Shown here: one piece after another, positions 16,693 to 31,915 of the stretch
How the letters are laid out: each line of letters begins with the position of its first letter
Position numbering within the stretch: position 1 is the first letter of the stretch
Origin: Lachnospiraceae bacterium
GTDB lineage: Bacteria > Bacillota > Clostridia > Lachnospirales > Lachnospiraceae
DNA length: 32,081 nt
Direction of reading: 5' to 3'
Assembly (NCBI GenBank): GCA_017626095.1
Contig: JAGAJL010000041.1
Coordinates: 1 to 32,081, forward strand
The notes under the pieces: model-generated
Databases searched by the model: none
What the model saw: only the letters and a program-made list of their open reading frames with translations
Told to the model about the DNA's origin: nothing
Translations under genes and position numbers: made by a program

Positions 16693-18033
16693 TTACTGCA
16701 TATAAAACGGATCGGTTTCCACTTCTTTAATAACAGCTTCCAGCTTATCCAGTTCTTCCAAAAGCTGTTCTTGTGTAATGATTAACGGCGGATTGCAGAG
16801 TACCATATTTTCATGACCAAAGGTTAAGAAACCTTTTTCGCGCAGGGAACCGATAATCTTTGGCAATTTGCCGTACGGATCCTGTCCATAAGGAACAATC
16901 GGTTCTTTTGTCTTCTTATCCTTAACAAATTCTACACAAGAGAATAAACCGATATGTCTGACATCTCCGACACAGTTATATTTCTCTTTGAACTCATCCA
17001 GTTTCTTTGCAAGGACAGCACCAACCTTATTGACATTGTCAAGGATATGAGCCTTCTCATAATAGTTGACACAGGCAACACCGGCAGCACAGGCTAACGG
17101 ATGACCACAGTAAGTCAAGCCGCATGAAAGTGTATGATCATCAAAATAGGCTGCAATTTCTTTGCTGACACATGCACCGCCAAGCTGGATATAACCACAG
17201 GTAACACCTTTGGCAAATGTAACAATATCCGGTTTCACATCAAAGTTCATAAAGGCAAACATTTTACCGGTTCTGCACCAGCCGGCCATAACCTCATCAC
17301 AAATCATGACGATGCCAAACTCATCACAGAGTTTTCTGACACCCTGTAGGTATCCTTTGGGAGGAATGATGATACCATTTGTGCCGGTTACAGTCTCTAA
17401 GATAATTGCAGCAATCTGATCGCGGCCTTCATAGATGATCTGTTCGCGAAGTTTTGCAATATAAAACTCGGTTGCCGCCTCCTCTGATTCAAACTGAATA
17501 CTCTCACGATAAATATAAGGATCAAAGAATTTTACAAATCCGGGCATACCGGGCTCAAGAGGAAATCTTCTCGGTTCACCGGTCAGGTTTCCGGCACCAA
17601 ATGTTGATCCATGATAACTTCTGTAACGGCTCATTACCTTATATCTTCCGGTGTACATTCTTGCCATTTTAATCGCATTTTCGTTGGCATCCGCACCACC
17701 GTTGGTAAAGAATACTTTGCCCATATTATCTGGCATCAGTTCAACAATCATCTTTGCCAGTTTTGCTCTGGATTCTACACCGTAGCCGGGACCCATCCAT
17801 GCAAATTTATCAATCTGCTCTTTCAATGCGTTGTTAATGTCTTCATTGCCATAGCCTAAGTTTACATTTACCTGTGTGGAAGACATATCTGTATATCTGT
17901 TTCCATCATAATCCCACAGATAGATGCCGTCTGCCTTTTCCATCGGGATTGGATTTACATCCTTCTGTTTTGCCCATGACTGCAAATAATACTTCTTTTG
18001 TGTCTCAACAATTTCTTTACCTGTCATTCCCAT
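16693..18033 (-). CDS. Class III (omega-amino acid type) aminotransferase
   Basis: 446-residue PLP-dependent transaminase of class III. GGADANENA lies at about 112-120 (phosphate-binding region), DEVMAGW at 246-252 (Asp holds the PLP ring), and the Schiff-base Lys is in TFAKG (Lys275). ADGIYLWDYDGNRYTDMSS at the N-terminus is of the type seen in enzymes annotated as taurine:2-oxoglutarate or aspartate-family aminotransferases. Start at ATG 18033, because AAAGGAG lies 9 bases before it; ATGs 6 bases on either side are less well placed. It follows livF by 85 bases and is the last gene before a terminator. With the transporter and an iron-type alcohol dehydrogenase in the same block, it may convert an imported amine to an aldehyde that the dehydrogenase reduces. 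The substrate is not proven: taurine, GABA and beta-alanine remain possible. Confidence 0.82.
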   Translation of the reverse strand: MGMTGKEIVETQKKYYLQSWAKQKDVNPIPMEKADGIYLWDYDGNRYTDMSSTQVNVNLGYGNEDINNALKEQIDKFAWMGPGYGVESRAKLAKMIVELMPDNMGKVFFTNGGADANENAIKMARMYTGRYKVMSRYRSYHGSTFGAGNLTGEPRRFPLEPGMPGFVKFFDPYIYRESIQFESEEAATEFYIAKLREQIIYEGRDQIAAIILETVTGTNGIIIPPKGYLQGVRKLCDEFGIVMICDEVMAGWCRTGKMFAFMNFDVKPDIVTFAKGVTCGYIQLGGACVSKEIAAYFDDHTLSCGLTYCGHPLACAAGVACVNYYEKAHILDNVNKVGAVLAKKLDEFKEKYNCVGDVRHIGLFSCVEFVKDKKTKEPIVPYGQDPYGKLPKIIGSLREKGFLTFGHENMVLCNPPLIITQEQLLEELDKLEAVIKEVETDPFYMQ

Positions 18034-18118
18034 TTTCATTATCTCCTTTATCATATACATTACAAAAAATACTTTTGACACTCATATCAAAAAACTATTG
18101 TCAGCTTAGCCGTTTGTA

Positions 18119-18829
18119 CTAAGCCCCCAAATATGCTTTTCGAACGTCATCATTATTCAGCAATTCTTTTGCATCGCCGGATAATTTAATTTTTCCCGTC
18201 TCCAGGACGTAGGCTCTGTTTGCTACTTTTAATGCCATTTTTGCATTCTGTTCTACCAACAGTACCGTAATTCCCTGTTTGTTTACTTCTTTAATAATAT
18301 CGAAAATTTCCTGCACCAGCAGTGGCGAAAGTCCCATAGACGGTTCATCCATCAGAATAATCTTCGGATCGGACATCAACGCACGTCCAACGGCAAGCAT
18401 CTGTTGTTCACCACCGGAGAAAGTACCGGCTAACTGATTCTGTCTTTCTTTCAGTCTTGGAAATCTTTCGAATACATGATCCATACGCTCAATGACTTTG
18501 TCTTTATCCTTGCGGCCATACATATATGCACCCATTTCCAGATTTTCACGCACAGTCATATCAACAAATACATGTCGTCCTTCGGGAACATGCGCAACAC
18601 CATGTGTTATAATTTTACTGGGCTCTTCTGCCAAAAGATTGGTATCGTCCCAGGTGACAGAACCACTGGTTGCCTTTTTCAACCCTGTGATCGTGTGAAG
18701 AATAGTGGTTTTTCCGGCACCGTTTGCACCGATCAAAGTAACAATTTCTCCATCGTTTACTTCGATACTTACATCTTCAATCGCATGAATAACACCATAA
18801 TGTACATTTAAATTCTCTACTTTAAGCAT
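18119..18829 (-). CDS. livF: Branched-chain-amino-acid-type ABC transporter ATPase LivF
   Basis: 236-residue ABC ATPase. Walker A GANGAGKTT lies at 34-42, the signature TFSGGEQQ at about 140 and Walker B ILMDEP after it, with the LivF-type NVHYG start and C-terminal VLETGKIKLSG. Start at ATG 18829 (AAGGAGG, spacing 8). It overlaps the end of livG by 8 bases, so translation is probably coupled. It pairs with LivG to power uptake through LivH/LivM. Confidence 0.93.
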   Translation of the reverse strand: MLKVENLNVHYGVIHAIEDVSIEVNDGEIVTLIGANGAGKTTILHTITGLKKATSGSVTWDDTNLLAEEPSKIITHGVAHVPEGRHVFVDMTVRENLEMGAYMYGRKDKDKVIERMDHVFERFPRLKERQNQLAGTFSGGEQQMLAVGRALMSDPKIILMDEPSMGLSPLLVQEIFDIIKEVNKQGITVLLVEQNAKMALKVANRAYVLETGKIKLSGDAKELLNNDDVRKAYLGA

Positions 18830-19622
18830 CCGCTTCGCCTCCTTCGTCTTCTTTACCGAGGTAAGCTTCAATCACGTCTTTATTATTGGCAATTTCTTCC
18901 GGCAGACCGCTCGCAAGAATTTCACCGAAATTCAGGACATATATTCTTTCGCATATGCTCATAACCAAACTCATATCATGTTCGATTAATAAAATCGGGA
19001 TTTGAAACTTTTCACGCAGCATTTTAATGGATTCTTTTAATTCATCCGTCTCAACCGGGTTCATACCGGCTGCCGGCTCATCCAAAAGCAGCAGTTTCAT
19101 GTCGGTTGCCAGAGCCCTTGCGATTTCCAACAATCTCTGTTTTCCATATGGAAGGTTTTCTGCACGCTGATCTGCAAATTCTTCCAGCTTGAACAATTTT
19201 AAAAGCTCCATTGCCTTTTTTGTTGTTTCCTCTTCTTCCTTCCAGAAAAACGGGGTTCTGGCAATCGACTGAAACAGACTGCTTTTCATATCTTTGTTAA
19301 AAGCCACTCTTACGTTATCCAGAACTGTCATTTTTTTGAATAAGCGGATATTCTGAAAAGTTCTGGCAATTCCTTCTTGTACAACCTGATGTGTGGAAAG
19401 ACCGTTCATTCTTTTTCCGCACAGCATATAGCTTCCGGTCGTCGGCTTATAGATACCTGTAATCAGGTTAAAAATGGTTGTCTTACCTGCTCCGTTTGGT
19501 CCGATCAAGCCAATCAGTTCTCCGGGATAGATTTGTATATTGACATCATTAACGGCCTTAAGACCACCAAACTGGATGCCCAGACTCTTTATTTCCAATA
19601 CCGGAACTCTTTCTTCTGCCAT
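18822..19622 (-). CDS. livG: Branched-chain-amino-acid-type ABC transporter ATPase LivG
   Basis: 266-residue ABC ATPase. Walker A GPNGAGKTT, the signature NLPYGKQRLLEIARAL, Walker B LLLLDEP, and the LivG-specific insert after the Q-loop (ARTFQNIRLFKKMTV) are visible. The C-terminus is acidic (EDEGGEADA). Start at ATG 19622: GGAG lies 8 bases before it, while the GTG nine bases earlier sits on the site. The gene begins 6 bases after the livM stop, so the two are tightly linked. Confidence 0.93.
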   Translation of the reverse strand: MAEERVPVLEIKSLGIQFGGLKAVNDVNIQIYPGELIGLIGPNGAGKTTIFNLITGIYKPTTGSYMLCGKRMNGLSTHQVVQEGIARTFQNIRLFKKMTVLDNVRVAFNKDMKSSLFQSIARTPFFWKEEEETTKKAMELLKLFKLEEFADQRAENLPYGKQRLLEIARALATDMKLLLLDEPAAGMNPVETDELKESIKMLREKFQIPILLIEHDMSLVMSICERIYVLNFGEILASGLPEEIANNKDVIEAYLGKEDEGGEADA

Positions 19623-19627
19623 ACCAA

Positions 19628-20653
19628 TCACTCCTTTCCTTCTGTTGCTTTCTTTTTCGTAAACTTCTCAAGAAGCTTCGGAAGAGAAAATTCACGACCG
19701 CCAAACAAACCGGTCGGCTTAAAAATCATAACCACAACCAGGATAATTGCATAAATCAACATTCTGTAGCTGGCAAATGCAGGTACCACATAGGAAATCA
19801 ACTGCGGCAATGCTGACAAAATAGGTGCTGCCACAATGGAACCTGTCAAAGATCCGCTACCACCAAGAATAACGATTGCAAGAAATTCTGATGATTTTGA
19901 GAAGTTGAAATAAGTCGGAACCAGTGTTGTAATATAGTGCGCATAAATGGCACCGGCGGTACCGGCAAAAAATGCGGAGATGGTAAAGGTCAATACTTTT
20001 GTTTTTGTCACGTTGATACCGGATGCTGCTGCCGCAATTCGGTCTTCTCTGATAGCTATCAAAGCTCTGCCGTATCTGGATCTAATATAGCAGTACATAA
20101 TGAAGATACAAACCACCATGGTAATGTATACATAATGATAATCCGAAACTTTTGCAATACCGGCAAAGGACTTACCAAATGTAGCACTTCCGGTAATGGC
20201 CGGAATACCAAAGTTACTTAAAACTACCCGGACAATTTCCGCAACCGCAACGGTTACAATACAAAGATAGTCCCCACTTAAACGAAGTGCAGGAATACCA
20301 ACTAAAAATCCGATAATTCCCGCAGCCACGCTACCGACTAAAATTGCGATTAAATATAATACGATAGACGGCAATTTTACCTGATCGCTGATTAACGTAG
20401 TTACAATTGCTGATGCATAGGCACCGATTGACATGAAACCCGCATGCCCCAGTGAAAACTCACCCATATATCCTGTTAAAAGGTTTAATGAACAGACAAT
20501 AATTGTATAAAACATTCCAATGACGACAAGACCATTGAAATATGCTGATTTCTTTCCTAATATTCCCGTATCAAATAACAGACTAAGAAGTAGGAAACCG
20601 ACAATAACAGCTATTATGCATATCAAATAATTTTTTTTCATTTTCTTCGGCAT
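19628..20653 (-). CDS. livM: Branched-chain-amino-acid-type ABC permease LivM
   Basis: 341-residue permease with about eight to ten membrane helices. It has the family motif GYMGEFSLGHAGFMSIGAYA near the N-terminus, the cytoplasmic loop motif LIAIREDRIAAAASGI that contacts the ATPase, and the closing motif LGGSGSLTGSIVAAPIL then PTGLFG. Start 20653 has AAGGAAG 7 bases upstream. It pairs with LivH in the inner membrane. Confidence 0.93.
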   Translation of the reverse strand: MPKKMKKNYLICIIAVIVGFLLLSLLFDTGILGKKSAYFNGLVVIGMFYTIIVCSLNLLTGYMGEFSLGHAGFMSIGAYASAIVTTLISDQVKLPSIVLYLIAILVGSVAAGIIGFLVGIPALRLSGDYLCIVTVAVAEIVRVVLSNFGIPAITGSATFGKSFAGIAKVSDYHYVYITMVVCIFIMYCYIRSRYGRALIAIREDRIAAAASGINVTKTKVLTFTISAFFAGTAGAIYAHYITTLVPTYFNFSKSSEFLAIVILGGSGSLTGSIVAAPILSALPQLISYVVPAFASYRMLIYAIILVVVMIFKPTGLFGGREFSLPKLLEKFTKKKATEGKE

Positions 20654-20671: not shown

Positions 20672-21559
20672 TTATACTTTTTCATTTACTTTTTTGCCCA
20701 TCAGGCCGGACGGTCTGACTAACAATACCAAAATCAAAATCAGATACGTAACTGCTTCATAGGTACCGGGAAGCATATATACCTTGACCATGATTTCTAT
20801 AATCCCTAACAATAGACCACCTATCATCGCTCCCGGAACGCTTCCAATTCCTCCCAGGACTGCTGCAACGAAGGCTTTCAATCCAAGTGTAATACCTAGT
20901 TCATTTTTAATACTTACATAAGATGTTGTATACATCATGGAAGCAACTGCCGCCAGACCGGAACCGATTGCGAATGTAATGGTAATAATTTTGTTTACGT
21001 TAATTCCTACTAAGGTAGATGCAATTTTGTCTTCCGGAACAGCCCTCATGGCTCTTCCCAGTTTTGTATACTTAATAAACAAAGTTAATAAAAGCATCAT
21101 CACAATACCAATGACCAGTGTTAAAATGGTTGTTCCCGGTATTGTCACGCTTCCGATTGCCACAGCCGGCAAATTAAACATGGGAGGCACGTTTCTCGGT
21201 GCAGAACCGAATAAAACAAGCGCTCCGTTTTCCAAAACCAAACTCATTCCAAGTGCTGTAATCAATGCTGTTGTCGATCCCTGTCCGCGGACCGGTTTAT
21301 ATGCAATCTGCTCTGTCATTACACCAACAAATACACAGACAATGATTGCTACAAATACAGCAAACCATGCCGGCAATCCCATTTTCAACATAACAGGAAT
21401 CAGATAAAATAGTGTAAATCCACCTACCATGATAAAATCACCATGTGCGAAATTAATCATTCTGATGATACCGTAGACCATGGTATAACCGAGAGCTGTC
21501 AGTGCATAAATTGAACCAAGATTTAATCCGTTTGCTAAACTCTGAATAAATTTTGCCAT
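20672..21559 (-). CDS. livH: Branched-chain-amino-acid-type ABC permease LivH
   Basis: 295-residue permease, hydrophobic throughout. The family start LANGLNLGSIYALTALGYTM and INFAHGDFIMVGGF are followed by the ATPase-contact loop MRAVPEDKIASTLVGIN, LGGIGSVPGAMIGGLLLG, and the end motif VRPSGLMGKK. It is the first of the two permeases after the binding protein, the normal order J-H-M-G-F. Confidence 0.93.
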   Translation of the reverse strand: MAKFIQSLANGLNLGSIYALTALGYTMVYGIIRMINFAHGDFIMVGGFTLFYLIPVMLKMGLPAWFAVFVAIIVCVFVGVMTEQIAYKPVRGQGSTTALITALGMSLVLENGALVLFGSAPRNVPPMFNLPAVAIGSVTIPGTTILTLVIGIVMMLLLTLFIKYTKLGRAMRAVPEDKIASTLVGINVNKIITITFAIGSGLAAVASMMYTTSYVSIKNELGITLGLKAFVAAVLGGIGSVPGAMIGGLLLGIIEIMVKVYMLPGTYEAVTYLILILVLLVRPSGLMGKKVNEKV

Positions 21560-21715: not shown

Positions 21716-21765
21716 AGAAACTATAATTTAGAAACTATAATTTAGAAACTATAATTTAGAAACTA
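21716..21765. repeat. 14-bp tandem repeat across the livJ stop codon
   Basis: AGAAACTATAATTT is repeated at 21716-21729, 21730-21743 and 21744-21757, followed by a partial copy. On the minus strand the partial copy holds the last codons of livJ and its TAA, so the stop region has been copied three times downstream. Degenerate related sequence continues to about 21685. Confidence 0.9.
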
Positions 21766-22970
21766 CCATAATAGGTAAGTGCGCCATCTTTGAATGTTTC
21801 AATTGTGAAAGGCTTTTTCGCATCACCGTTTTCATCGTAGGTAACGGTACCACCCATACTGTCATATTCCATTGCAAGAAGTGCATCTTTTACAACTGCA
21901 GGATCATAAGAATTAGCTGTTTCCATAGCCTGTACAAGCATCTTAACGGTATCGTAGTATAAAGAAGAAACCGCATTCAGACCTTCTTCGCCATATTCTG
22001 CTTTGTATGCAGCAACATAATTCTTAACAGCTTCTGTATCAGCAGAAAGATCAAGGTGTGCTAAATAGTAGCAATCATTAAATTTAGCTTCATAACCGGT
22101 TACATCTGTTCCGTCCCATGCATCACCACCAAGGATTGGTCCGCTAAATCCGGCATCTCTTGCCTGTGATACAAAGTTCGGTACGGTATCATAGTTGTTC
22201 GGATAAATAATAACTTCTGCGCCCTGTTCAATTGCTTTTGAAATCTGAGCGGTATAGTCTGTATCAGTTGTTACACAACCATAGTGTTCAAAAGTCACAT
22301 CTGCCATTTCTGCAAGAGAACCTTCCATTGCTTCTGCAAGACCTGCACAGTAATCTGAGTCTTCAGCAGCTACGATTGCAATGTTTTTAGCACCAAACTC
22401 TTCGGTTGCCATTTTTGCAAGTGTAGGTCCCTGATCAGCATCTGAGAAACATTCTCTGAAGATGTAATCACCTGTTTTGCAAATCGTTGCATTGGTTGAG
22501 TAAGGTGTAATTACAAGCATTCCGCTTTCCTGTGCTGTTTCTACAAAGGATAAGGTACAGCTTGAAGAACAAGAACCGATTACGGCACTGATGTCATATG
22601 ATGCACAGTTGTTATAAGCACTGATTGCTTCTGTTGCATCTGACTTATCATCTGCGAATACTGCTGACTCTAAGGTATAAGACTTTCCATCAATAGTAAC
22701 GCCGCCTGCTTCATTGATTTCTTTGATAGCCAGGTTATAACCGTTAACGGCGCCTTCACCCCAGCTTGCAAGACTTCCGGTAAGAGGTGCAATACCGGCG
22801 ATTAAAATGGTATCACCATCTGCTGCGGGGGCAGATTCGGTTGATTCGGTTGTCTCAGTTGTTCCGGTTGATTCCGTAGTTGCTGCGCTGTCTCCGCATC
22901 CAGCTAACAATCCCATGCTTAACGCTGTTACTGTCAGCATGGCTACGATTTTTTTCATTCTTTTTTTCAT
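21756..22970 (-). CDS. livJ: ABC transporter substrate-binding lipoprotein, LivJ type
   Basis: 404-residue solute-binding protein. The lipoprotein signal ends in LLAGC (Cys at about 25), with a Thr/Glu/Ser linker, then a type I periplasmic-binding fold (ILIAGIAPLTGSLASWGEGAVNGYNLAIKE). The ligand-contact region SCSSSCTLSFVETAQESGML resembles the Leu/Ile/Val family. It is anchored outside the membrane and feeds LivHMGF. GGAGG lies 8 bases before the start at 22970. The actual ligand is not shown by sequence; this family also carries other amino acids, amides and short aliphatic compounds. Confidence 0.92.
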   Translation of the reverse strand: MKKRMKKIVAMLTVTALSMGLLAGCGDSAATTESTGTTETTESTESAPAADGDTILIAGIAPLTGSLASWGEGAVNGYNLAIKEINEAGGVTIDGKSYTLESAVFADDKSDATEAISAYNNCASYDISAVIGSCSSSCTLSFVETAQESGMLVITPYSTNATICKTGDYIFRECFSDADQGPTLAKMATEEFGAKNIAIVAAEDSDYCAGLAEAMEGSLAEMADVTFEHYGCVTTDTDYTAQISKAIEQGAEVIIYPNNYDTVPNFVSQARDAGFSGPILGGDAWDGTDVTGYEAKFNDCYYLAHLDLSADTEAVKNYVAAYKAEYGEEGLNAVSSLYYDTVKMLVQAMETANSYDPAVVKDALLAMEYDSMGGTVTYDENGDAKKPFTIETFKDGALTYYGSF

Positions 22971-23019: not shown

Positions 23020-23637
23020 TTACAGGCCAAATTTCGCTTTTACATAATGTTCCATCACATCAACGCATCTGTCCCTTCCAATGCGGGCACTGTTTAATGT
23101 CATGTCGTAGTTGACCGGGTTCGTCCAGTAGTTACCCTTTGTATAATGCTTGTAATAATCTGCGCGGTACTTATCCGTCTTTGTAATCAGCCGGTGTGCC
23201 TCAGCCTCTGTTACGCCCATCTTTTTGATAATGGATGCGACGCAGTCAGCTCTTGGCGCTTCTATATAGAAACTTGCAACATTGCAGTAATCCTTTAATA
23301 CATAATCTGCACATTTACCAATGACAATAAAAGAAGTTTCATCAGCCAGTTTCCGGATGATTTCGCTCTGGATATTAAAAAGATTATTATTGGAAGTAAA
23401 TCTCTTATCCGAAGGCTCTACCACATAATTAAACGGCAGTCCCTTTAACTTGTCGGATAAATACAGTTTTTCATCCGAGAGATTAAACAATGCCTCATTA
23501 ATGCCGCTTTTTTCGGAAGCCATTCGAAGAATCTGCTGTTCATAACAGGGAATTCCCAAACGCTCCGCAAGCTTTACACCGATTTCTTTTCCGCCGCTGC
23601 CAAAACCTCTGGCAATTGTAATCACATATTTCTGCAT
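23020..23637 (-). CDS. Cytidylate-kinase-like family protein
   Basis: 205-residue P-loop protein of the cytidylate-kinase-2 type. The N-terminal MQKYVITIARGFGSGGKEIG carries the phosphate-binding loop (GFGSGGKEIG). The family body IPCYEQQILRMASEKSG is followed by SFIVIGKCADYVL and a basic region near RIGRDRCVDV. The family is common in anaerobic Firmicutes; its real phosphate acceptor is mostly unknown. Start 23637 has GGAGG 7 bases upstream. It begins 30 bases after the terminator that ends the alcohol dehydrogenase and precedes livJ by 49 bases, so it leads the transporter run. Why a kinase leads this operon is unclear. Confidence 0.8.
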   Translation of the reverse strand: MQKYVITIARGFGSGGKEIGVKLAERLGIPCYEQQILRMASEKSGINEALFNLSDEKLYLSDKLKGLPFNYVVEPSDKRFTSNNNLFNIQSEIIRKLADETSFIVIGKCADYVLKDYCNVASFYIEAPRADCVASIIKKMGVTEAEAHRLITKTDKYRADYYKHYTKGNYWTNPVNYDMTLNSARIGRDRCVDVMEHYVKAKFGL

Positions 23638-23666
23638 GATTTTTCCTCCTCTTACTGATATCAAAG

Positions 23667-23705: not shown

Positions 23706-23731
23706 CTTATTCACTCTTTACTTATTCACTC
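23706..23731. repeat. Duplicated stop-codon region of the alcohol dehydrogenase
   Basis: CTTATTCACTC occurs at 23706-23716 and 23721-23731 (period 15). On the minus strand the second copy covers the TAA of the alcohol dehydrogenase, so the gene end has been copied just downstream. Confidence 0.6.
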
Positions 23732-24819
23732 CATAAGTCTGTATATATTTTTAAAATATCTTTCTTGTTAACTTCTTTTTTTGTATTACCGGGGCTACCA
23801 CTGGCAATTGCATCATCTGCCATTTTATCCATCTTTAAAAAGAATGTCTCTCTGTCAATTCCGTATTCCTCCAAGGTGGGAATTTCAATGGTTTTACAAA
23901 GATCTGCCAGATAATCAAAAAAGATATCCGCACACTCTGCATCGGTACCGGCTGCACCCAATTCTCTTCCGATTGTCGCAAATCGTTCAAGGCAGCCGTC
24001 CTTAGCGAATAACAGACATTTCGTAATCAGCATAGCATTGGAGATACCATGTGGCACATGGAACAGTGCACCGATGGGTCTGCTCATGCCGTGCACCAGT
24101 GTAACACTTGCATTATTGATACAAACGCCCGCTTCATATGCGGCAAATGACATTTCCGTTCTGGCCTCAATATCCTCTCCGTTTGCATAAGCACGCGGTA
24201 AAAATTCAAAAACACGTTTGATTGCGGAAAGCGCAAACATGTCGGTATATGGTGTAGCCTTCTTGGATGTAAAAGCTTCCACAGCATGTGTCAGGGCATC
24301 CATTCCGGTTGCTGCAGTAATGGATTTGGGAGCCGTTACGCACAATGTCGGATCAATAATCGCGAGCTTCGGTATGATTTTTTCATCCGTAATTAACTTT
24401 TTCGTATCTGTCGCAGATTCTGTCACGCAATAAAACTTCGTTGCTTCAGAACCGGAACCTGCAGTTGTCGGAATCAAAACAATCGGTGCATAATCAGATG
24501 CTGCCGAAACAGCCTTGGCGCTATCCTGTGGGCTTCCGCCTCCGATTCCGATAATCATATCGCATCCGGACTGATCATAAACCTCTTTTGCAGCCGCAAC
24601 CATTAAATCATCCGGTTCTCCTTTGATATCTGTAAATACTGTATATTTTACTCCGACTTCATCCAATGAAGCGGTTAATTTTTTTACAATTCCACTCTTT
24701 TCAACAATTTTTCCGGAAATCACAAGGGCATTGGTTCCCAAACTCTGAATCTGTTCTTTTGCCGATGTAATTGCCCCTTCGCCTACAATTGTTCGGTTCG
24801 GCATTAATACCTGAAACAT
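23722..24819 (-). CDS. Iron-containing alcohol dehydrogenase family oxidoreductase
   Basis: 365-residue group III (iron-type) alcohol dehydrogenase. The NAD(P) loop GIGGGSPQDSAKA lies at about 91-103 and PTTAGSGSE at 118-125. The metal ligands are visible: Asp174 and His178 in GMDALTHAVEAF, His243 in LVHGMSRP, His257 in FHVPHG. It reduces an aldehyde, or oxidises the alcohol, with NAD(P)H. Start at ATG 24819 (GGAGG 9 bases before it). It has its own promoter and a terminator-like hairpin in the leader. Next to a class III aminotransferase and a HAAT transporter, a role in reducing the aldehyde made by the transaminase is reasonable; sulfoacetaldehyde reductases belong to this family. 4-hydroxybutyrate and 1,3-propanediol type enzymes are alternatives. 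Confidence 0.85.
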   Translation of the reverse strand: MFQVLMPNRTIVGEGAITSAKEQIQSLGTNALVISGKIVEKSGIVKKLTASLDEVGVKYTVFTDIKGEPDDLMVAAAKEVYDQSGCDMIIGIGGGSPQDSAKAVSAASDYAPIVLIPTTAGSGSEATKFYCVTESATDTKKLITDEKIIPKLAIIDPTLCVTAPKSITAATGMDALTHAVEAFTSKKATPYTDMFALSAIKRVFEFLPRAYANGEDIEARTEMSFAAYEAGVCINNASVTLVHGMSRPIGALFHVPHGISNAMLITKCLLFAKDGCLERFATIGRELGAAGTDAECADIFFDYLADLCKTIEIPTLEEYGIDRETFFLKMDKMADDAIASGSPGNTKKEVNKKDILKIYTDLWSE

Positions 24820-24853
24820 TTTGTGATACCTCCATTCCATCTTTTTAGAAAGA

Positions 24854-24964: not shown

Positions 24965-25019
24965 TATTGAAAAAAACAGTAAATTTTGTGCAATTGCACA
25001 AGTGTAAAGTTATTAATTT

Positions 25020-25244: not shown

Positions 25245-25258
25245 AAAAGGGAATAATT

Positions 25259-26419
25259 TTATAAGATACTCTCAATACAAAAAGCTGCATAAAGCCTGGC
25301 TTTTCCTTCCCAGGATGTCAGATCCAGCCCCATGATTTCCTCAGCTTTCCGGATATAATTATTTACTGTATTCCGATGAATAAAGAATTTCTGGCTCACA
25401 TCTCCCTGATGCCCGTTACATTCAATATATGTTTTGATAAAATGATGATAATCCGTTCCGTTCTCTTTATCATATTCAATCAGTTTACCAAACGAATCCT
25501 TATAAAAATCAGAAAGCACCTCAGAATTTCCGATGTTGACCAAAAGCTTGTAAAGGCCCAATTCCTGATAACGGAGAATATGCTCCTGTCTCTTACATGC
25601 AACCTCACAAGCTGCATAGGCACGCATAAAGTTAATGTCCTGGTTTTCTAAACCTTTAACCGCATCTCCTACACCGATATAAACCTGCGAAAGTCTCTTT
25701 TGGGCAGATAGCTTTTTAAAAATATCGTCCAGATACTGCTCTAACTGTTCTTTTGAATAATCAATCAGAACTACAATTCTCTTTTCCTGATATCCAAAGG
25801 AAATGTATTGATCCTTGATTGCTTTTGCGGTGCGTTCCGAGAGATGTTTTAAACACCCGCATGCATTCACAAATTCTTCTGTTCCTTTTTCGATATCCAA
25901 TGAAAAACACAGAAATGTCATGACACAACTCGACATATATCCATAACGCTCCATCTGATGAATGAGCGTTTTCTTATCACCCACATTAAAAATCAGATCC
26001 TTGATAATGGAGGCTACCGAATCTTCTCTGACCGCATTGTCCATAATCCGCTGGCAATAATCTCTGGTGACATCAACAAGAGGTACTTCCCACGGAATGG
26101 TAAAAAGGGGAAACTGGTTTTCGTTGCAAAATGCAATGATGGAATCCGGAATTGTCTTAATAAACATTCCGGTATTTACAATCAGGGCACTGGCATGCAG
26201 CTTATATACCGTCTCCACAAAACAACGCAGTTTTTCCTCGTCATTTCCCAGAATGCATTCAGTAATGACGACCTCATTTCCATGCAGAAAGTGAGCTCCC
26301 TCATTGGTTTCAATGATATGTACCCATTGCACAAGATTATTCAGTCCATTTTCTCCTGCGAGCAATTTCATATTATATTGTACGGATGCCTTAAATAAAT
26401 TACCTACCGTCAATGCCAT
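25259..26419 (-). CDS. PucR family transcriptional regulator
   Basis: 386-residue regulator. Residues about 1-125 form the PucR sensor domain (LTVGNLFKASVQYNMKLLAG...VQWVHIIETNEGAHFLHGNE). A middle region of about 130-320 is GGDEF-like but without a cyclase motif. Residues about 335-384 form the C-terminal helix-turn-helix (DVSQKFFIHRNTVNNYIRKA). PucR proteins usually activate nitrogen, purine or amino acid catabolic genes near them in response to a metabolite. It is the last gene of the 5-oxoproline run and sits before the alcohol dehydrogenase module, so it may serve either or both. The start has only a weak site (AGGA about 12 bases upstream). Confidence 0.88.
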   Translation of the reverse strand: MALTVGNLFKASVQYNMKLLAGENGLNNLVQWVHIIETNEGAHFLHGNEVVITECILGNDEEKLRCFVETVYKLHASALIVNTGMFIKTIPDSIIAFCNENQFPLFTIPWEVPLVDVTRDYCQRIMDNAVREDSVASIIKDLIFNVGDKKTLIHQMERYGYMSSCVMTFLCFSLDIEKGTEEFVNACGCLKHLSERTAKAIKDQYISFGYQEKRIVVLIDYSKEQLEQYLDDIFKKLSAQKRLSQVYIGVGDAVKGLENQDINFMRAYAACEVACKRQEHILRYQELGLYKLLVNIGNSEVLSDFYKDSFGKLIEYDKENGTDYHHFIKTYIECNGHQGDVSQKFFIHRNTVNNYIRKAEEIMGLDLTSWEGKARLYAAFCIESIL

Positions 26420-26435: not shown

Positions 26436-26564
26436 TCTGTCATCATTCTTCTTTTCCATCATCCAATTCTATCATCATTTAATTCTGTCATGATTCTGCT
26501 TTGTCAGCGTCCGTTTCTGTCACTAACTCCGTCATTATCCCACTTTGACAGTATCCGTTTCTGT
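26436..26564. repeat. Degenerate repeats around the aminotransferase stop codon
   Basis: CTTTGACAGTATCCGTTTCT at 26543-26562, coding for the end of the aminotransferase, recurs as CTTTGTCAGCGTCCGTTTCT at 26499-26518 (17 of 20 bases alike, period 44). Three degenerate copies of ATTCTGTCATCATTCT lie at about 26438, 26466 and 26482. Together they fill the gap before the PucR gene. Confidence 0.55.
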
Positions 26565-27395
26565 TGCCGTGCATATTTCTTCATACAACGCATCTCGAAG
26601 TTTAAACAGGGTTTCCCTGTCTTTTCCTCCCACCGGTTTTCCATCCAGTTCATCCACATACATACAGACGTGAGATGAGGATGTGACGATAATCTCATCT
26701 GCATTTCTTAAATCGTCCAGATAATACGGCGTTTCACTGACACCAATCCCCAGTTTCTTGCACATTCTAATCAGGTGCGCACGTGCAATACCGGGAAGAA
26801 TCATATCATCTGTGGGGGCTGTATAGAGGATACCATCTTTTAGAATATGACAGTTACAATGTGCACATTCCGTAATTCTTCCGTCATGGCGATACAAAAT
26901 CGTTTCATTGACGCCTGCTTTATATGCCTTCTCCGCATAAAGAACCGAAGGAAGCAGGTTCAATGTTTTACAGTTGCAATACAAAAATCTCTTGTCTTCA
27001 GCGGTTACACATTTAATCGGTTTCTGGCAGGGATCAATGGTTTCCGGCTTAATCATAACCCAGAGATTTCCGGGACCTTTATCATAAACATGATTACGAA
27101 TTCCGGTTCCTCTTGAACATGCCCAGTAAACAAAGTTATTTCCCGTATCCATCTTTTTTACCAGATCAGAAAGCAGTTCTTTTAATTCCTCTTTTGAGCA
27201 GGGAATTTCAATATCCATCAACTTTGCGGAATTAAAAAAACGATCGATATGTTCGTCAATCGCAAACAGATGATAGTTTCTGGAAGGTCCTGCGTCATAC
27301 ACGCCATCACCGAAAAAACACACTCTGTCATTGAACGGTATCATCATATCTTCCAACTCATCAATCTTTCCATTGTAATAACCTAATGTTTTCAT
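26535..27395 (-). CDS. D-amino-acid-transaminase-like class IV aminotransferase
   Basis: 286-residue fold-type IV PLP enzyme. It follows the D-amino acid transaminase of Bacillus closely: FGDGVYDAG near 28-36, DEHIDRFFNSAKLMDIEIP near 47-65, the carboxylate-trap motif RxH in RGTGIRNH (Arg100, His102), Schiff-base Lys143 in CKTLNLLPSVL, Glu176 in ITECAHCN, and a nucleotide cup in MILPGIARAHLI. The RxH motif favours D-amino acid substrates over branched-chain L-amino acids. The cysteine-rich stretch ECAHCNCH after Glu176 is unusual. AAAGGAGGAG precedes the start. It is in one run with D-glutamate-cyclase-like and 5-oxoprolinase genes, so D-glutamate with 2-oxoglutarate or D-alanine is the natural guess. 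Confidence 0.82.
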   Translation of the reverse strand: MKTLGYYNGKIDELEDMMIPFNDRVCFFGDGVYDAGPSRNYHLFAIDEHIDRFFNSAKLMDIEIPCSKEELKELLSDLVKKMDTGNNFVYWACSRGTGIRNHVYDKGPGNLWVMIKPETIDPCQKPIKCVTAEDKRFLYCNCKTLNLLPSVLYAEKAYKAGVNETILYRHDGRITECAHCNCHILKDGILYTAPTDDMILPGIARAHLIRMCKKLGIGVSETPYYLDDLRNADEIIVTSSSHVCMYVDELDGKPVGGKDRETLFKLRDALYEEICTATETDTVKVG

Positions 27396-27439
27396 AATAA
27401 TACTCCTCCTTTTTCTACTACAATATTTATGGTTAATAT

Positions 27440-27456
27440 ACCTAACAACCAGTTAG
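27440..27456. other. Small hairpin at the end of the DUF4392 gene
   Basis: CCTAAC, loop AACCA and GTTAGG form a 6-bp stem that includes the stop codon of the DUF4392 gene. There is no T-run. It may stabilise an RNA end. Confidence 0.4.
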
Positions 27457-28277
27457 GTTACTATCTCCTCTAATGCGTTAATGATTTCTTGTTCTATCTC
27501 CATACTCTTTCCATCGACGGAAACCACTCTTTCATGTGTCACACCGTCCACGCTTCCGATTTCCACCGTCTTTTTAATATATGTTTCAATCCATTCAAAA
27601 TGCGGCAACAGTTTTTGCCCGGACTGTTTGGAAAGAGCTGTTACAATTCCATAGGCACCCCAGTTGGAAACCGTTGCGATTACCAGAATGTCTGTGCTGA
27701 CTACACAGGGTTCTAACGAAAGCTTTCTGGTGATTGCTCCCGCTATTTTCCCCATTCCGATTTCATTTCCACCATCTCCGACACCGATGGTCGGGATCAT
27801 TCCCTGATATTTTACAAACATTTCATCAATCGGAGCTGTATAGGCATCGATGCTGACACCTCTCATATTTGCATATTTTGAAAACCTGTTCTTTCCACAC
27901 CGCTCAATGGATATCATACCCTTTGGCTCATACTCCTCAACAAGCTGTCTGAAGATATCTTCATCTGCAACATACGGAATATAGATTGTCTGAAGATTTT
28001 CCATTTCAAAAAAGCCCTTACAATGCAAATCGGTAACAATAATCGGTCGATATCCCAGCTTTTGCAGTGCTAAAGCCAAAACAACCGTCCCGGCAGGTCC
28101 GTCTGTTTCTGCATAACCTGCCACATAAAATCCAGTTGTCAGAAAAACATTGCCCTTTTCCCAGGAAAGAATTTCCAGGGCAGCTTTTTCACAGCAATCG
28201 CCAGACACATATCTTCTGATATCCGGCATGCCACGCTCCGAATAACGCAAAACCACGTCTTCAATTGAATTCTTCAT
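27453..28277 (-). CDS. DUF4392 protein, D-glutamate cyclase C-terminal-type domain
   Basis: 274-residue protein consisting of one DUF4392 (glutamate cyclase-like) domain. Visible motifs are TTGFYVAGYAETDGPAG (47-63) and PTIGVGDGGNEIGMGKI (162-178), both characteristic. In vertebrates this domain is fused after DUF1445 in mitochondrial D-glutamate cyclase, which turns D-glutamate into 5-oxo-D-proline and water. Here it is a separate gene, 22 bases after pxpA, with the DUF1445 gene just beyond pxpA. It probably provides the second half of the same enzyme or works on the same substrate. That inference rests on the fusion and gene order, not on a proven activity. Confidence 0.82.
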   Translation of the reverse strand: MKNSIEDVVLRYSERGMPDIRRYVSGDCCEKAALEILSWEKGNVFLTTGFYVAGYAETDGPAGTVVLALALQKLGYRPIIVTDLHCKGFFEMENLQTIYIPYVADEDIFRQLVEEYEPKGMISIERCGKNRFSKYANMRGVSIDAYTAPIDEMFVKYQGMIPTIGVGDGGNEIGMGKIAGAITRKLSLEPCVVSTDILVIATVSNWGAYGIVTALSKQSGQKLLPHFEWIETYIKKTVEIGSVDGVTHERVVSVDGKSMEIEQEIINALEEIVT

Positions 28278-28298
28278 AAGCGTCCCCTCTTTCTATTT

Positions 28299-29066
28299 CT
28301 ACTCAACGACTTTTCGAAGCGGAAGGATTTCAATCCCCTCTTTTGTCAGTTCCTCAAATAACATTTTTGCAAACAAAACAGCCTTTTTCCCATCTCCATG
28401 GAGGCATATAGAATCTGCCTGAATCGGGACTTCTGTTCCATCGATTGCCGTCACAAAACCTTTTTTTACCATTTGAATAGTCCGGCTGACCGCAATCTGC
28501 TCATCCTGTATTACGGCCCCATCTTTTGATCGCGGAACCAATGTTCCGTCTGCCTGATAAGCCCGGTCTGCAAATACTTCGTTTGCTGTTTTCAATCCTG
28601 TCTTTTTTGCCATATCAATCAAAAGACTTCCGGATAATCCCAATAAAATTAAATCAGGATCCACTTCATAGACAGCCTCTGCAATTGCACATGCCAGCTT
28701 TTCATCCTTTGCTGCCATATTGTACATAGCTCCGTGCGGCTTTACATGCTGCATTTTTATATGATTTGCTTTGCAGAATGCCTGCAAGGCACCAACCTGA
28801 TACTGAACCATTGCTTTTAATTCTTTTGCACTGACTGCCATGTTTCTGCGGCCAAAGCCAACCAGATCCGGATATCCGGGGTGTGCACCGATAGCCGTAT
28901 GATTTTCCACACCAAGTCTTACAGTCTGTGCCATTACCAAAGGATCCGAAGCATGAAATCCACAGGCAACATTTGCAGAAGAAATATAGGGTATGACTTC
29001 TTCATCCATTCCACATGTATAATTTCCAAAGCTTTCTCCCAAATCTGCATTTAAATCAACTTTCAT
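28299..29066 (-). CDS. pxpA: 5-oxoprolinase subunit PxpA (LamB/YcsF family)
   Basis: 255-residue PxpA. The hallmark MKVDLNADLGESFGNYTCGM is at the N-terminus, with SSANVACGFHASDP at about 31-44, then GAHPGYPDLVGFGRR and HVKPHGAMYN. PxpA with PxpB and PxpC forms an ATP-dependent enzyme that opens 5-oxo-L-proline to L-glutamate. Start at ATG 29066, because GGAAGG is about 11 bases before it and only 2 bases before the alternative ATG at 29075. In the kip operon of Bacillus subtilis the same genes (ycsF, ycsI, kipI, kipA) sit together. Confidence 0.92.
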   Translation of the reverse strand: MKVDLNADLGESFGNYTCGMDEEVIPYISSANVACGFHASDPLVMAQTVRLGVENHTAIGAHPGYPDLVGFGRRNMAVSAKELKAMVQYQVGALQAFCKANHIKMQHVKPHGAMYNMAAKDEKLACAIAEAVYEVDPDLILLGLSGSLLIDMAKKTGLKTANEVFADRAYQADGTLVPRSKDGAVIQDEQIAVSRTIQMVKKGFVTAIDGTEVPIQADSICLHGDGKKAVLFAKMLFEELTKEGIEILPLRKVVE

Positions 29067-29195
29067 ATTCACCATAACCTTCCTATTATTACAAAAATAT
29101 ATTTTTTATCCATGTCTCAAATACGATATATAAAATTTGCATACATTTCATAATCACTATGCAAATAAATCAAATTTCCACAAAAGACTCAATAT

Positions 29196-29238
29196 GATGT
29201 TGGGGCACAAAGCCATACTTTTTGCCCCTGATATCATC
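29196..29238 (+). repeat. Hairpin repeat family R, copy 3 (short form)
   Basis: 43 bases: GATGTTGGGGCACAAAG, a spacer, TTTTTGCCCC and TGATATCATC. It keeps only the two ends of the longer copies and forms a single stem GGGGCA/TGCCCC. Its right end overlaps the stop codon of the DUF1445 gene. Confidence 0.75.
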
Positions 29239-30073
29239 AATATTTCAAATTAATATTTTTGACATCTGTCACGAGCATATGCCCCGGCGCATGTGTAATA
29301 CAAAAACGCGGTTTTGATGCCATGACAACAGCCTGTGGCGTAACACCGCAGGGCCAGAAAACCGGCACTTCTCCTTCTTTCATCGTAACGGCATCTCCAA
29401 AGTCCGGCTTGGAAAGATCTTTTATTCCGATTGCGGCAGGCTCTCCAATATGAACCGGAGCACCATGCACTTTCGGCATTGCTCCCGTTACCATGACAGC
29501 TTTTGTTACCAGCTCATAAGGAATGGGGCGCATGCTGACCACCATATTTCCATGAAATACACCGGCACTTTTACAGGGGATATTGGTTTTGTACATCGGC
29601 ACATTACAGTTTTCTTCAATTTGTCTGACCGGAATATCCGCTTTTAACAATTCTCCTTCAAAAGAAAAACTGCAGCCGATTAAAAAGCTTACCAGATCAT
29701 CTCTCCAAAAGTCTGAAACATCCGTATACATTCCCGTCAGTTCTCCGTTTTCATAGATACAGTACTGTGGTATCTCCTTGGCGATATCCGCATGATCTGC
29801 TATCTCATGCAAATATCGGTCACCCGCATTCGTAACCTCTAAAATCGGACAGGCTTTCGGATTTTTGGTAGCAAATAACAAAAAATCAAATGCAAGATCT
29901 TTGGGTAACACGACCAGATTTGCCTGCGCATAATCACCACACATTCCACTGGTTTCTCCGGTTATTTTTCCCTCACTGATTAATGCCCGTACCTCTTTGG
30001 GCGTGCTTTCTGCATAGTCAGCCGCACACTTTCCTTCCGGATATCGGTCTTCTATCTTTTTATACAAGCTCAT
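29237..30073 (-). CDS. DUF1445 protein (YcsI / D-glutamate cyclase N-terminal-type)
   Basis: 278-residue DUF1445 protein, also annotated as putative hydro-lyase. Hallmarks are SGMCGDYAQANLVVLPKDLA (42-61), ACPILEVTNAGD (74-85) and the closing THAPGHMLVTDVKN. Start at ATG 30073 with GAGG 8 bases upstream. An in-frame extension of 30 residues encoded by tandem repeats (KRFIYEKRFIYR...) has no ribosome site and is not counted. In vertebrate D-glutamate cyclase this domain is fused in front of DUF4392. In B. subtilis ycsI belongs to the kip operon with the PxpABC genes. It lies between pxpC and pxpA. Confidence 0.88.
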   Translation of the reverse strand: MSLYKKIEDRYPEGKCAADYAESTPKEVRALISEGKITGETSGMCGDYAQANLVVLPKDLAFDFLLFATKNPKACPILEVTNAGDRYLHEIADHADIAKEIPQYCIYENGELTGMYTDVSDFWRDDLVSFLIGCSFSFEGELLKADIPVRQIEENCNVPMYKTNIPCKSAGVFHGNMVVSMRPIPYELVTKAVMVTGAMPKVHGAPVHIGEPAAIGIKDLSKPDFGDAVTMKEGEVPVFWPCGVTPQAVVMASKPRFCITHAPGHMLVTDVKNINLKY

Positions 30074-30117
30074 AATTTCTGCCTCTTTTCTACATAAATT
30101 CATTTCATATATAAAAA

Positions 30118-30186
30118 CATTCCTATAAATAAAACGTTTTTCATAAATAAACCGCTTTTCCATAAATAAAACGCATTTCCATAAGG
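30118..30186. repeat. 18-19-bp tandem repeat upstream of the DUF1445 gene
   Basis: Three copies plus a partial one of a unit containing CATAAATAAAACGCTTTTC (ATAAATAAA starts at 30125, 30143 and 30162). They lie in the 155-base gap after pxpC and could be a protein-binding array, or simple expansion. Confidence 0.7.
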
Positions 30187-30187
30187 T

Positions 30188-30266
30188 AATGTTGATAAAT
30201 ATCTTAGCCCCATGATATCAACAGATTGCTACGCACCATGTGTTGTCGTAATTTTGGTATCAAAAT
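30188..30266 (+). repeat. Hairpin repeat family R, copy 4, entering the end of pxpC
   Basis: 79 bases alike to the left half of copy 2: ATGTTGATAAATATCTTAGC, CCCATGATATCAAC, then AGATTGCTACGCAC and TGGTATCAAAATG. The first hairpin is degenerate. The right third lies inside the pxpC reading frame and supplies its last 12 or so codons and stop (complement of 30229-30266). Confidence 0.75.
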
Positions 30267-31173
30267 GAAAAAACCGCTTTTTCTGTATTTTTTCTATCTC
30301 TACCTTTTGAAAAACCACATGGTCTCCCGGCCTTGCCTGTGCAAGCTTTGGCAAATCTTCTTTTATAACGGTTGCAATCTTAGCATATCCGCCCGTCGTC
30401 TGGTGATCGGCCATCATAACAATCGGAAGTCCGGCCGAAGTAACCTGAATCGAGCCAAACACAATTCCATCCGAAACAATATCTGTTTTTCCTTTTCCTT
30501 CTATCTTAGGTCCTTCCATGCGAATTCCCATGCGGTCACTCTCAATAGAAACTGTATAGTCTGCACTCAGAAAAGTCTTGATTCCTTCTTCTGTAAAACA
30601 ATCTTCCTGCGGACCCAAAACAACCCGGATATTCTTTTTTCCTTCGAAATCCGACTGTTTCATCTGTTTTTTCAACATTTTCTTTATTTCTTTTTCCGAA
30701 AACTTTTTGGTCCGAATCTCCAGTTGATCGCCATTTTGAAGTTTTCTTCCTCCAAATCCACCTATTTTACATTTCAGATTGGTGGATTTACTGTTCATGA
30801 TAACCGGCACCTGCATTTCTCCCGCAATTGCAAGATAGGCACGGACACCGGTCTTTGCCATTCCAAATTTCAGCCGCTGTCCTTTTTGAACCAAATAAGC
30901 CTGCCCACGCTCAATCGGAACTTCATCCAGTTTTGCCTGCATATCCGCTCCGGTATAAGCAACCATTACATCTTCATCAAATCGAATTTCCGCTCCCATA
31001 AGCGTCATTTCCAACACGGCCTCATTCTTATCATTCCCAACCAATTGATTTGCCTGTGTATAAGACCGATAATCCATAACACCGGATTGACCAATCCCAT
31101 ATTCCATAAATCCAAATCTTCCCGCATCCTGAATGGTTGTCAAAGGTCCTGCCTGCAAAATCGTCATGATCAT
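30229..31173 (-). CDS. pxpC: 5-oxoprolinase subunit PxpC (KipA family)
   Basis: 314-residue PxpC, of the biotin-dependent carboxyltransferase-like KipA type. Hallmarks are ILQAGPLTTIQDAGRFGFME then GIGQSGVMDYRSYTQAN at the N-terminus, and DGIVFGSIQVTSAGLPIVMM with DHQTTGGYAKIATV near the end. Start 31173 has GAGG 7 bases upstream. It pairs with PxpB 25 bases upstream. The last residues (FDTKITTTHGA) are encoded by an R-family repeat, so the native C-terminus was probably replaced or extended; the family core is complete, so activity should be retained. Confidence 0.92.
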   Translation of the reverse strand: MIMTILQAGPLTTIQDAGRFGFMEYGIGQSGVMDYRSYTQANQLVGNDKNEAVLEMTLMGAEIRFDEDVMVAYTGADMQAKLDEVPIERGQAYLVQKGQRLKFGMAKTGVRAYLAIAGEMQVPVIMNSKSTNLKCKIGGFGGRKLQNGDQLEIRTKKFSEKEIKKMLKKQMKQSDFEGKKNIRVVLGPQEDCFTEEGIKTFLSADYTVSIESDRMGIRMEGPKIEGKGKTDIVSDGIVFGSIQVTSAGLPIVMMADHQTTGGYAKIATVIKEDLPKLAQARPGDHVVFQKVEIEKIQKKRFFHFDTKITTTHGA

Positions 31174-31198
31174 ATCATCACCTCATCTTTGTCGGATT

Positions 31199-31915
31199 CT
31201 ACACGAATTCGGCTTTATAACTGCCTCTCTCCACATCCCTGCGGATACTCTGATATTCCTGCACAGTCACAGGTTCAAATCGAATATATTCCCCTGCTTC
31301 ACATAATACCGGTGGATTGTTCACAGGATTGTAAAAATTAAGAGGCGTGCTTCCGATCAACCGCCATCCACCCGGAGATTCCATCGGATAAACTCCTGTC
31401 TGATTACCGCCAATTCCAACAGATCTTTCCGGTATTTTGGTTCTCGGAACATCCAGCCTTGGCATATGGATGCGCTCATCCAGACCTCCTAAATAAACAA
31501 ACCCCGGCAAAAAACCCAGCATATAAATTTTGTAATCCACACTTTTATGAATATTTATAATCTCCGTCTCACTCATTCCAAGCTGATCTGCCATGTCGGA
31601 TAAATCCGGACCATATTCTCCTCCATAGAGGCAGGGAACAATCCTGATTTTTTTACTTCCTGTTTCCTGAACTGTGCTGTCTCTATGAAAACCGCTTATT
31701 TTTTTTGATAATTTTTTATAAGAAATCCGTGACGAATCATAAAACACCAATAAACTCCGATAAGTAGGTAAAATCTCCACCACACCACGAAGGGATGCAC
31801 TCTTTATCTGCCGGGTCAAAGCCTGTACGTCGTCATTTATTTTTTCATCGATTTTATTTCCAAACTCACAAAGAATTGCCTGATCTCCTACAGGACACAT
31901 ACGAAATCCTGACAT
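31199..31915 (-). CDS. pxpB: 5-oxoprolinase subunit PxpB (KipI family)
   Basis: 238-residue PxpB of the KipI / allophanate-hydrolase-subunit-1 type. Hallmarks are CPVGDQAILCEFG near the start, IVPCLYGGEYGPDL (92-105), YMLGFLPGFVYLGGLDE (131-147), PRTKIPERSVGIGG (157-170) and YPMESPGGWRLIGSTP. With PxpA and PxpC it makes ATP-dependent 5-oxoprolinase. In B. subtilis its counterpart also inhibits the sporulation kinase KinA; nothing here shows such a role. GAGGTG lies just before the ATG. It is the first gene of the run visible in this window. Confidence 0.92.
   Translation of the reverse strand: MSGFRMCPVGDQAILCEFGNKIDEKINDDVQALTRQIKSASLRGVVEILPTYRSLLVFYDSSRISYKKLSKKISGFHRDSTVQETGSKKIRIVPCLYGGEYGPDLSDMADQLGMSETEIINIHKSVDYKIYMLGFLPGFVYLGGLDERIHMPRLDVPRTKIPERSVGIGGNQTGVYPMESPGGWRLIGSTPLNFYNPVNNPPVLCEAGEYIRFEPVTVQEYQSIRRDVERGSYKAEFV

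Follow-up and report, generated by a model that had tools for sequence, protein, structure and literature searches.

Separable gene company of DUF1445 and DUF4392 in a 5-oxoprolinase gene run with a D-amino acid transaminase-type gene from a Lachnospiraceae bacterium

Background

The 5-oxoprolinase (pxp) operons and vertebrate D-glutamate cyclase are the closest described relatives of a gene run that we analysed in a Lachnospiraceae bacterium (contig JAGAJL010000041.1 of assembly GCA_017626095.1; the whole 32,081-base stretch is hereafter the window). The run comprises pxpB, pxpC, a DUF1445 gene, pxpA, a DUF4392 gene and a gene for a D-amino acid transaminase-type enzyme. In 5-oxoprolinase, PxpB and PxpC are assumed to phosphorylate and PxpA to open the ring, and pxp operons are described for the L form (PMC10448178, PMC13274462; papers are cited by PMC number and for the available parts of their text). 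In those parts neither paper treats the D form, and the terms '5-oxo-D-proline', 'D-glutamate' and 'racem' are absent from the main text of PMC13274462. As in ycsF-ycsG-ycsI-kipI-kipA of B. subtilis and pxpTABC of C. glutamicum, pxpA, pxpB and pxpC of the window lie in one run. Compared with these operons, the window run is without an Nramp-family transporter gene but adds DUF4392, the transaminase, a PucR regulator and an ATP-binding cassette (ABC) transporter.

Vertebrate D-glutamate cyclase (9030617O03Rik / GLUCM / C14orf159) has DUF1445 and DUF4392 in one protein, and the fused mouse enzyme converts D-glutamate to 5-oxo-D-proline (PMC5339696). The genes of the homologues of TON_0340 (DUF4392) and Atu3911 (DUF1445) were reported in 2016 to be fused in higher animals, where they perhaps catalyze sequentially linked reactions (PMC5132392). 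For human D-glutamate cyclase, no full-length and six split homologues were found in gut bacteria (PMC12547972/PMC11580864). Hence the vertebrate fusion, which a preliminary description of the window had pointed out, is already published (PMC5132392), and the DUF1445/DUF4392 split itself is also known (PMC5132392, PMC12547972). Both domains are present in the window as well, but as separate, non-adjacent genes embedded in a 5-oxoprolinase operon, while other bacteria have DUF1445 without DUF4392. TON_0340, a Thermococcus protein (PDB 4dwz, 5gkx, 5gl2-5gl4), belongs to the same family as the window DUF4392 protein, which keeps its six metal ligands; the literature presents TON_0340 as a probable Mn phosphatase (PMC5132392), while the gene company in the window points to D-glutamate and 5-oxoproline.

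We report that the run combines two modules, an L module (pxpABC and DUF1445) and a D module (DUF4392 and the transaminase), which are told apart by their gene company in other genomes. The annotations 'D-glutamate cyclase' and 'putative hydro-lyase', loosely based and common to both families, are here separated: DUF1445 sits with the L-form 5-oxoprolinase and DUF4392 with the D-transaminase, which could tell the role of each half of the vertebrate enzyme. Bodily D-glutamate has been traced partly to food and gut bacteria (PMC5339696). Our literature search showed no publication that brings pxpABC together with DUF4392 and a D-transaminase; it left most subscription papers uncovered, and priority is not established.

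Methods

The window is a complete contig of a genome (G000; handles beginning with G and L are ours for genomes and loci) with an estimated completeness of 86.6%; since it spans the entire contig, the region upstream of pxpB is invisible. Named genomes were scanned with the window DUF4392 protein, which gave 36 loci. An even draw of 391 Clostridia genomes was searched with the profiles PF14336 (DUF4392), PF07286 (DUF1445) and PF03746 (pxpA), 250 Lachnospiraceae genomes with PF14336, and 164 Actinomycetota genomes for DUF1445 and pxpA. As a control of the profile search, the B. subtilis genome contains PF07286, in the gene that we take to be ycsI of the pxp operon.

Stretches around the window genes, around 12 and 16 other DUF4392 genes and around 17 DUF1445 genes apart from DUF4392 were annotated using purpose-built hidden Markov models (HMMs), and only matches over the cut-off were analysed. 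In total 64 DUF4392 loci were counted, the window included; L125 was dropped since it is from the same genome as L002. Neighbour counts refer to family-HMM matches only, and shadow open reading frames (ORFs) in GC-rich loci produced false neighbour clusters. Many stretches stop at contig ends, so absences from fetched stretches are weak. Fisher p values were computed ignoring relatedness.

Results and discussion

The gene run

The six ORFs are intact and lie on the - strand between 31915 and 26535, and a PucR-type regulator gene ends the run:

31199..31915, - strand: pxpB, 5-oxoprolinase subunit B, 238 amino acids (PF02682, 8.4e-72; TIGR00370, 208 bits, cut-off 145.6)
30229..31173, - strand: pxpC, 5-oxoprolinase subunit C, 314 amino acids (PF02626, 8.7e-98; TIGR00724 over cut-off)
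29237..30073, - strand: DUF1445 / PF07286 protein (3.7e-71; NF003969 'putative hydro-lyase', 413 bits, cut-off 324)
28299..29075, - strand: pxpA, LamB/YcsF, 258 amino acids (PF03746, 1.6e-103; NF003814, 373 bits, cut-off 226)
27453..28277, - strand: DUF4392 / PF14336, D-glutamate-cyclase-like C-terminal domain as a protein of its own, 274 amino acids (1.6e-73)
26535..27395, - strand: class IV aminotransferase of the D-amino-acid-transaminase type, 286 amino acids, with R100-N-H102 (PF01063, 7.7e-46)
25259..26419, - strand: PucR-type regulator, final gene of the run (PF07905, 1.1e-29; PF13556, 2.6e-12)

The Pfam matches bear out the gene identities given in the preliminary description, which had ended the run with the transaminase; the real run is longer and reaches the PucR regulator (26419-25259) and a transporter block downstream. 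Regulator genes are found in the equivalent position in L002 and L004-L007. That DUF1445 and DUF4392 are separate genes was also correct, and pxpA lies between them. Thus all three 5-oxoprolinase subunits are encoded together and both domains of D-glutamate cyclase are present in the genome. PxpB (TIGR00370) and the PxpA subfamilies exceed their NCBIfam cut-offs, and the PxpA equivalogs fall under theirs. Relatives with solved structures are 1v6t, 1xw8, 2dfa and 2xu2 for pxpA and 2pif and 3db9 for DUF1445. The DUF1445 ORF is open from 30163, and judging from the AGAGG preceding it the true start is very probably the ATG at 30073; pxpA has a second ATG at 29066, for which AGGAAGG is better spaced. 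A promoter scan was at chance level (21 versus 20.8) and a terminator scan slightly over chance (9 versus 5.0, sd 2.5).

Conservation of the neighbourhood

The neighbourhood recurs beyond chance, with the identical six-gene order in seven of the 36 named loci (L002-L008) and the same set in other orders. Relatives of the PucR, dehydrogenase, PF13189, transporter and class III aminotransferase genes (see below) are also present in five of these seven; the remaining two are L003, which stops at the contig end, and L008, without the downstream block in the fetched stretch. A second operon type (L092, L111, L112 and L115) has the order binding protein-permeases-PF13189-transaminase-DUF4392-pxpB-pxpC-DUF1445-pxpA, and the transporter, PF13189 and transaminase genes occur in some members of both types.

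Among the 64 DUF4392 loci, 23 have pxp genes in the fetched stretch, and of those 22 have DUF1445 and 20 the transaminase. The other 41 are without pxp genes, one of them (L011) having the transaminase and none DUF1445. The survey for DUF1445 and DUF4392 beside pxp genes, which the preliminary description had proposed and whose failure it would have taken as refutation, was positive (22/64), and the link that it drew to D-glutamate and 5-oxoproline metabolism is supported by the gene company.

DUF1445 tracks pxpA, with or without DUF4392

In the 391 Clostridia genomes we detected DUF4392 in 13, DUF1445 in 23 and pxpA in 40 (all over cut-off). DUF1445 tracks pxpA, which is present in 22 of the 23 DUF1445 genomes (p 5e-24) and in 13 of the 15 DUF1445 genomes among the Actinomycetota. 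Of the 23, 11 are without DUF4392, ten of them having pxpA and one (G178) having neither. The pxp+DUF1445 stretches without DUF4392 have an Nramp-family gene in nine of nine cases, one of them partial. The DUF1445 protein has three invariant cysteines, C75, C134 and C242 (numbered from the likely start), in 22/22 chosen rows and in 38/38 rows including one duplicate genome.

In L082 (3206-5041) and L085 (3652-5477), the genes immediately following pxpC encode a biotin carboxylase and a biotin carrier, an arrangement that hints at a carboxylase partner for pxpBC; the domains were scanned in L082 and L085 was assigned by similarity.

DUF4392 and its metal site

The window DUF4392 protein matches the TON_0340 structures (5gkx, 4dwz, 4fc5 and 5gl2-5gl4) with E ~5e-26. 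In a pairwise alignment the metal ligands E59, D61, E115, D157, E161 and D246 of TON_0340 (PMC5132392) correspond to E62, D64, E130, D173, E177 and D260 of the window ORF, and these six acidic metal ligands are invariant in 67/67 DUF4392 rows, one row being a duplicate genome. Among the 13 DUF4392 Clostridia genomes, DUF1445 is present somewhere in 12 (p 8e-16), as is pxpA (p 3e-12), and PF14336 exceeds the cut-off in 17 of the 250 Lachnospiraceae genomes.

The closest named DUF4392 protein is that of Kineothrix sp. MSJ-39 (77%), and in the tree the window protein falls among Lachnospiraceae rows. The DUF4392 proteins of L092, L111 and L082, the three compared, are 24-25% alike to it, against 37-69% for other shared proteins; with L092 alone the values are 25% for DUF4392 and 37-64% for the nine other shared proteins compared. 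The window and L092 proteins are in separate clades, and on the tree a minimum of four changes is required to account for the pxp-linked rows. These comparisons suggest that DUF4392 was either swapped or evolved faster than the other genes. A claim of DUF4392 replacement inside the operon was dropped, since a joint clade of the two main groups was not rejected (approximately unbiased test, p 0.074) and the group was chosen post hoc.

Elsewhere, a tripartite ATP-independent periplasmic (TRAP)-type membrane gene is directly upstream of DUF4392 in L017, L018, L020, L033 and L019 (haloarchaea and a Clostridiaceae bin); DctM was checked in L019 and the other loci were assigned by similarity. A PF16868 binding protein accompanies it (checked in L020; L017 and L018 by similarity), and in L090 a similar TRAP-type/binding-protein pair is divergent from DUF1445-DUF4392-pxpABC. 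In the Rokubacteria loci L022 (10620-12164) and L024 (1589-3511) a class III aminotransferase gene follows DUF4392, the L022 protein being closest to HemL models and under their cut-offs. Three DUF4392 ORFs are present in one locus of an Acetobacteraceae member (L036, 535-4642).

The transaminase tracks DUF4392

The eight best solved matches of the window transaminase are D-amino acid or D-alanine aminotransferases, with 1daa and 3lqs, presumably Bacillus-type D-amino acid transaminases, at the top. The RxH motif in the preliminary description was correctly identified: R100-N-H102 aligns with R-A-H of these two. In D-amino acid transaminases the R-x-H motif is a carboxylate trap and the Lys is catalytic. 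Both motif residues and the aligned catalytic K143 are kept in the nine aligned sequences, window included. The window enzyme differs from 1daa and 3lqs in its tie to a DUF4392 operon and in its score under the TIGR01121 cut-off; this model exceeds its cut-off in none of the 23 genomes searched.

The transaminase tracks DUF4392. In the two surveys, 11 of the 14 pxp loci that have DUF4392 also have the transaminase, versus none of nine pxp+DUF1445 stretches without DUF4392 (p 2.7e-4), two of these nine (L094 and L105) being from genomes whose DUF4392 gene lies elsewhere. Of the three DUF4392 loci without the transaminase, L124 (G639) has a transaminase-type gene ~1.2 kb past the fetched end, and a class I/II aminotransferase gene is near or beside DUF4392 in L113 and L124. 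Among the Coriobacteriia, L011 has a transaminase-DUF4392 pair and no pxp gene in the stretch, and in L012 (G398) such a pair precedes the same-strand genes pxpB-pxpC-DUF1445-pxpA by ~8.5 kb.

An alanine racemase gene is in the cluster in G168, G336 and G173 (L082, L085 and L087; TIGR00492 over cut-off). Alanine racemase exceeds the cut-off in 15/15 genomes searched, in the window genome on another contig, and a Na+:alanine symporter gene adjoins the transaminase gene in L117 and L008. D-glutamate and pyruvate yield D-alanine under a D-transaminase. With alanine racemase added, D-glutamate could be turned into 2-oxoglutarate and L-alanine without any 5-oxoproline racemase. The stereochemical gap that the preliminary description had seen between 5-oxo-D-proline and the L form, and had ascribed either to the DUF proteins or to different products, thus need not be bridged by the DUF proteins.

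Proposed function and alternatives

On balance, we consider the run to be probably a catabolic operon for both 5-oxoproline enantiomers and D-glutamate, made up of two separable modules plus uptake. The gene identities, kept active-site residues, recurring gene set and two-module partition are observed directly; the PxpABC chemistry, the mouse cyclase activity and the DUF4392 metal site come from the literature; every reaction in this organism, its direction and the transporter substrate we infer. In the L arm PxpABC would open 5-oxo-L-proline to L-glutamate with ATP spent, and DUF1445 would assist in this. In the D arm DUF4392, as a dimetal enzyme, would interconvert 5-oxo-D-proline and D-glutamate without ATP. 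The glutamate/5-oxoproline equilibrium favours the ring; an ATP-free D arm must therefore be drawn forward, and the transaminase could do so by converting D-glutamate and pyruvate to 2-oxoglutarate and D-alanine, with alanine racemase returning D-alanine to the L pool. The amino-acid-type ABC transporter would import the substrate, which the PucR-type regulator would probably sense, and the presence of both in the set favours the use of an external substrate.

Several observations weigh against this proposal. In the literature consulted, the sole activity assayed for a lone DUF4392 protein is that of a weak Mn phosphatase (PMC5132392). For the mouse enzyme cyclisation is the direction shown (PMC5339696), and the reaction here may run either way. 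PxpC is under the cut-off of its equivalog model (NF045499, 274 bits, cut-off 500), as is the transaminase with TIGR01121 (206 bits, cut-off 277). The shared order in L002-L008 is partly plain common descent; G155 (100% complete) has DUF4392 without DUF1445 and pxpA; in six of 12 Clostridia genomes (G020, G054, G109, G134, G269 and G364) DUF4392 and DUF1445 are on separate contigs; and for six of the 17 Lachnospiraceae DUF4392 genomes no pxp gene was seen in the fetched stretch. The transporter may carry another substrate, since the block in the window clade ends in a taurine-transaminase-like gene. Finally, no candidate for glutamate racemase (murI, TIGR00067) was found in the window genome, 86.6% complete, and so the transaminase could make D-glutamate for the wall.

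It is conceivable, though we think it unlikely, that the missing 5-oxoproline racemase is DUF1445, acting through its cysteines. In that case DUF4392 would cyclise D-glutamate, DUF1445 invert the product and PxpABC open it to L-glutamate, giving an ATP-driven one-way path from D- to L-glutamate into which the transaminase would feed the amino groups of other D-amino acids. Because DUF1445 is nested in the pxpA genomes of both Clostridia and Actinomycetota and present in 12 of 13 DUF4392 genomes, its distribution is that expected of a step between DUF4392 and PxpABC. Cofactor-free racemases use cysteines, and the three invariant ones in DUF1445 are consistent with this; if true, the vertebrate fusion would unite cyclase and racemase in one protein. 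Such a path would make the transaminase and alanine racemase partly redundant, however, and it finds no support from the fold: AlphaFold2 gave no usable model from seven rows (predicted local distance difference test score 32), and a 22-row profile run against solved structures matched only 2pif and 3db9 (UPF0317). It is also at odds with the mouse and human data in PMC5339696. That DUF1445 and DUF4392 instead form one heteromeric D-glutamate cyclase, a split form of the vertebrate enzyme, appears distinctly unlikely to us. The fusion in vertebrates (PMC5132392, PMC5339696), the co-occurrence in 12/13 Clostridia DUF4392 genomes and the adjacency of the two genes in L082, L085 and L090 are in its favour, but the distribution is not that of an obligate unit: DUF4392 lacks DUF1445 in 1/13 and DUF1445 lacks DUF4392 in 11/23 genomes. 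Furthermore, none of the 41 fetched DUF4392 stretches without pxp genes, haloarchaea included, has DUF1445, although most of these genomes were not searched whole; archaea are said to be without DUF1445 (PMC5132392), and among animals DUF4392 is present in invertebrates and DUF1445 in vertebrates only (PMC5339696). DUF4392 also carries a complete metal site alone, at loci without pxp genes too, and the genes are not neighbours in the window. The 'split D-glutamate cyclase' of the preliminary description, one enzyme in two pieces, is therefore too strong, and the two-module reading of a conserved and functionally coherent set is better supported.

A role in wall synthesis, the transaminase making D-glutamate from D-alanine and 2-oxoglutarate while DUF4392 and the pxp genes merely salvage or buffer the excess, would agree with the murI gap, which extends to G481 (same genus, 100% complete by estimate), G173, G395, G396, G397 and G522, G639 having a weak match only, and with alanine racemase in all 15 genomes searched. 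This we judge very improbable. murI exceeds the cut-off in 10/15 and 14/18 genomes searched (G391 = G570 is in both sets and G481 among the 18), and in each set eight of these murI genomes carry DUF4392 together with pxp genes in one stretch. Since G481 is without both murI and DUF4392, the gap is not linked to the operon, and a wall gene would be unexpected alongside transporter and regulator genes in one run.

Downstream genes and other features

Downstream of the regulator gene the following genes were predicted:

23722..24840, - strand: iron-type alcohol dehydrogenase (PF25137/PF00465; no NCBIfam cut-off reached)
23020..23664, - strand: PF13189 cytidylate-kinase-like protein (2.7e-49)
21756..22970, - strand: substrate-binding protein of a branched-chain-amino-acid-type ABC transporter (PF13458, 3e-48)
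20672..21559, - strand: ABC permease (PF02653, 2.3e-43)
19628..20653, - strand: ABC permease (PF02653, 1.2e-44)
18822..19631, - strand: ABC ATPase (PF00005, 4.7e-32; PF12399)
18119..18871, - strand: ABC ATPase (PF00005, 5.1e-31)
16693..18081, - strand: class III aminotransferase of the window clade (PF00202, 9.2e-89)

Relatives of the binding protein are found in L002, L004-L007 and the second operon type, where a PF13189 relative directly precedes the transaminase gene (L092, with the copy at 11877-12545, L111, L112 and L115). Among the loci examined, the dehydrogenase was seen only in the window clade, and its best solved match is a methanol dehydrogenase. Among solved proteins the class III aminotransferase matches taurine:2-oxoglutarate aminotransferase (6jix, E 6.7e-154) far better than any other (second-best E 1.6e-74) and would fit a possible taurine pathway, while the dehydrogenase does not reach the cut-off of the SarD model (179 bits, cut-off 700). 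The block of class III aminotransferase, dehydrogenase and ABC transporter may serve to convert an omega-amino acid to an alcohol.

Between the PucR and dehydrogenase genes there is a 231-base palindrome (25017-25247) with 100% identical outer (34 nt) and inner (15 nt) arms and a DNA fold z of -17. Part of it recurs at 10874-10986 (86.7%), and it resembles an element of the miniature inverted-repeat transposable element type. A Clostridiales-1 RNA (RF01699) was predicted on the - strand at 16314-16466, scoring 132.9 bits where the gathering score is 48.

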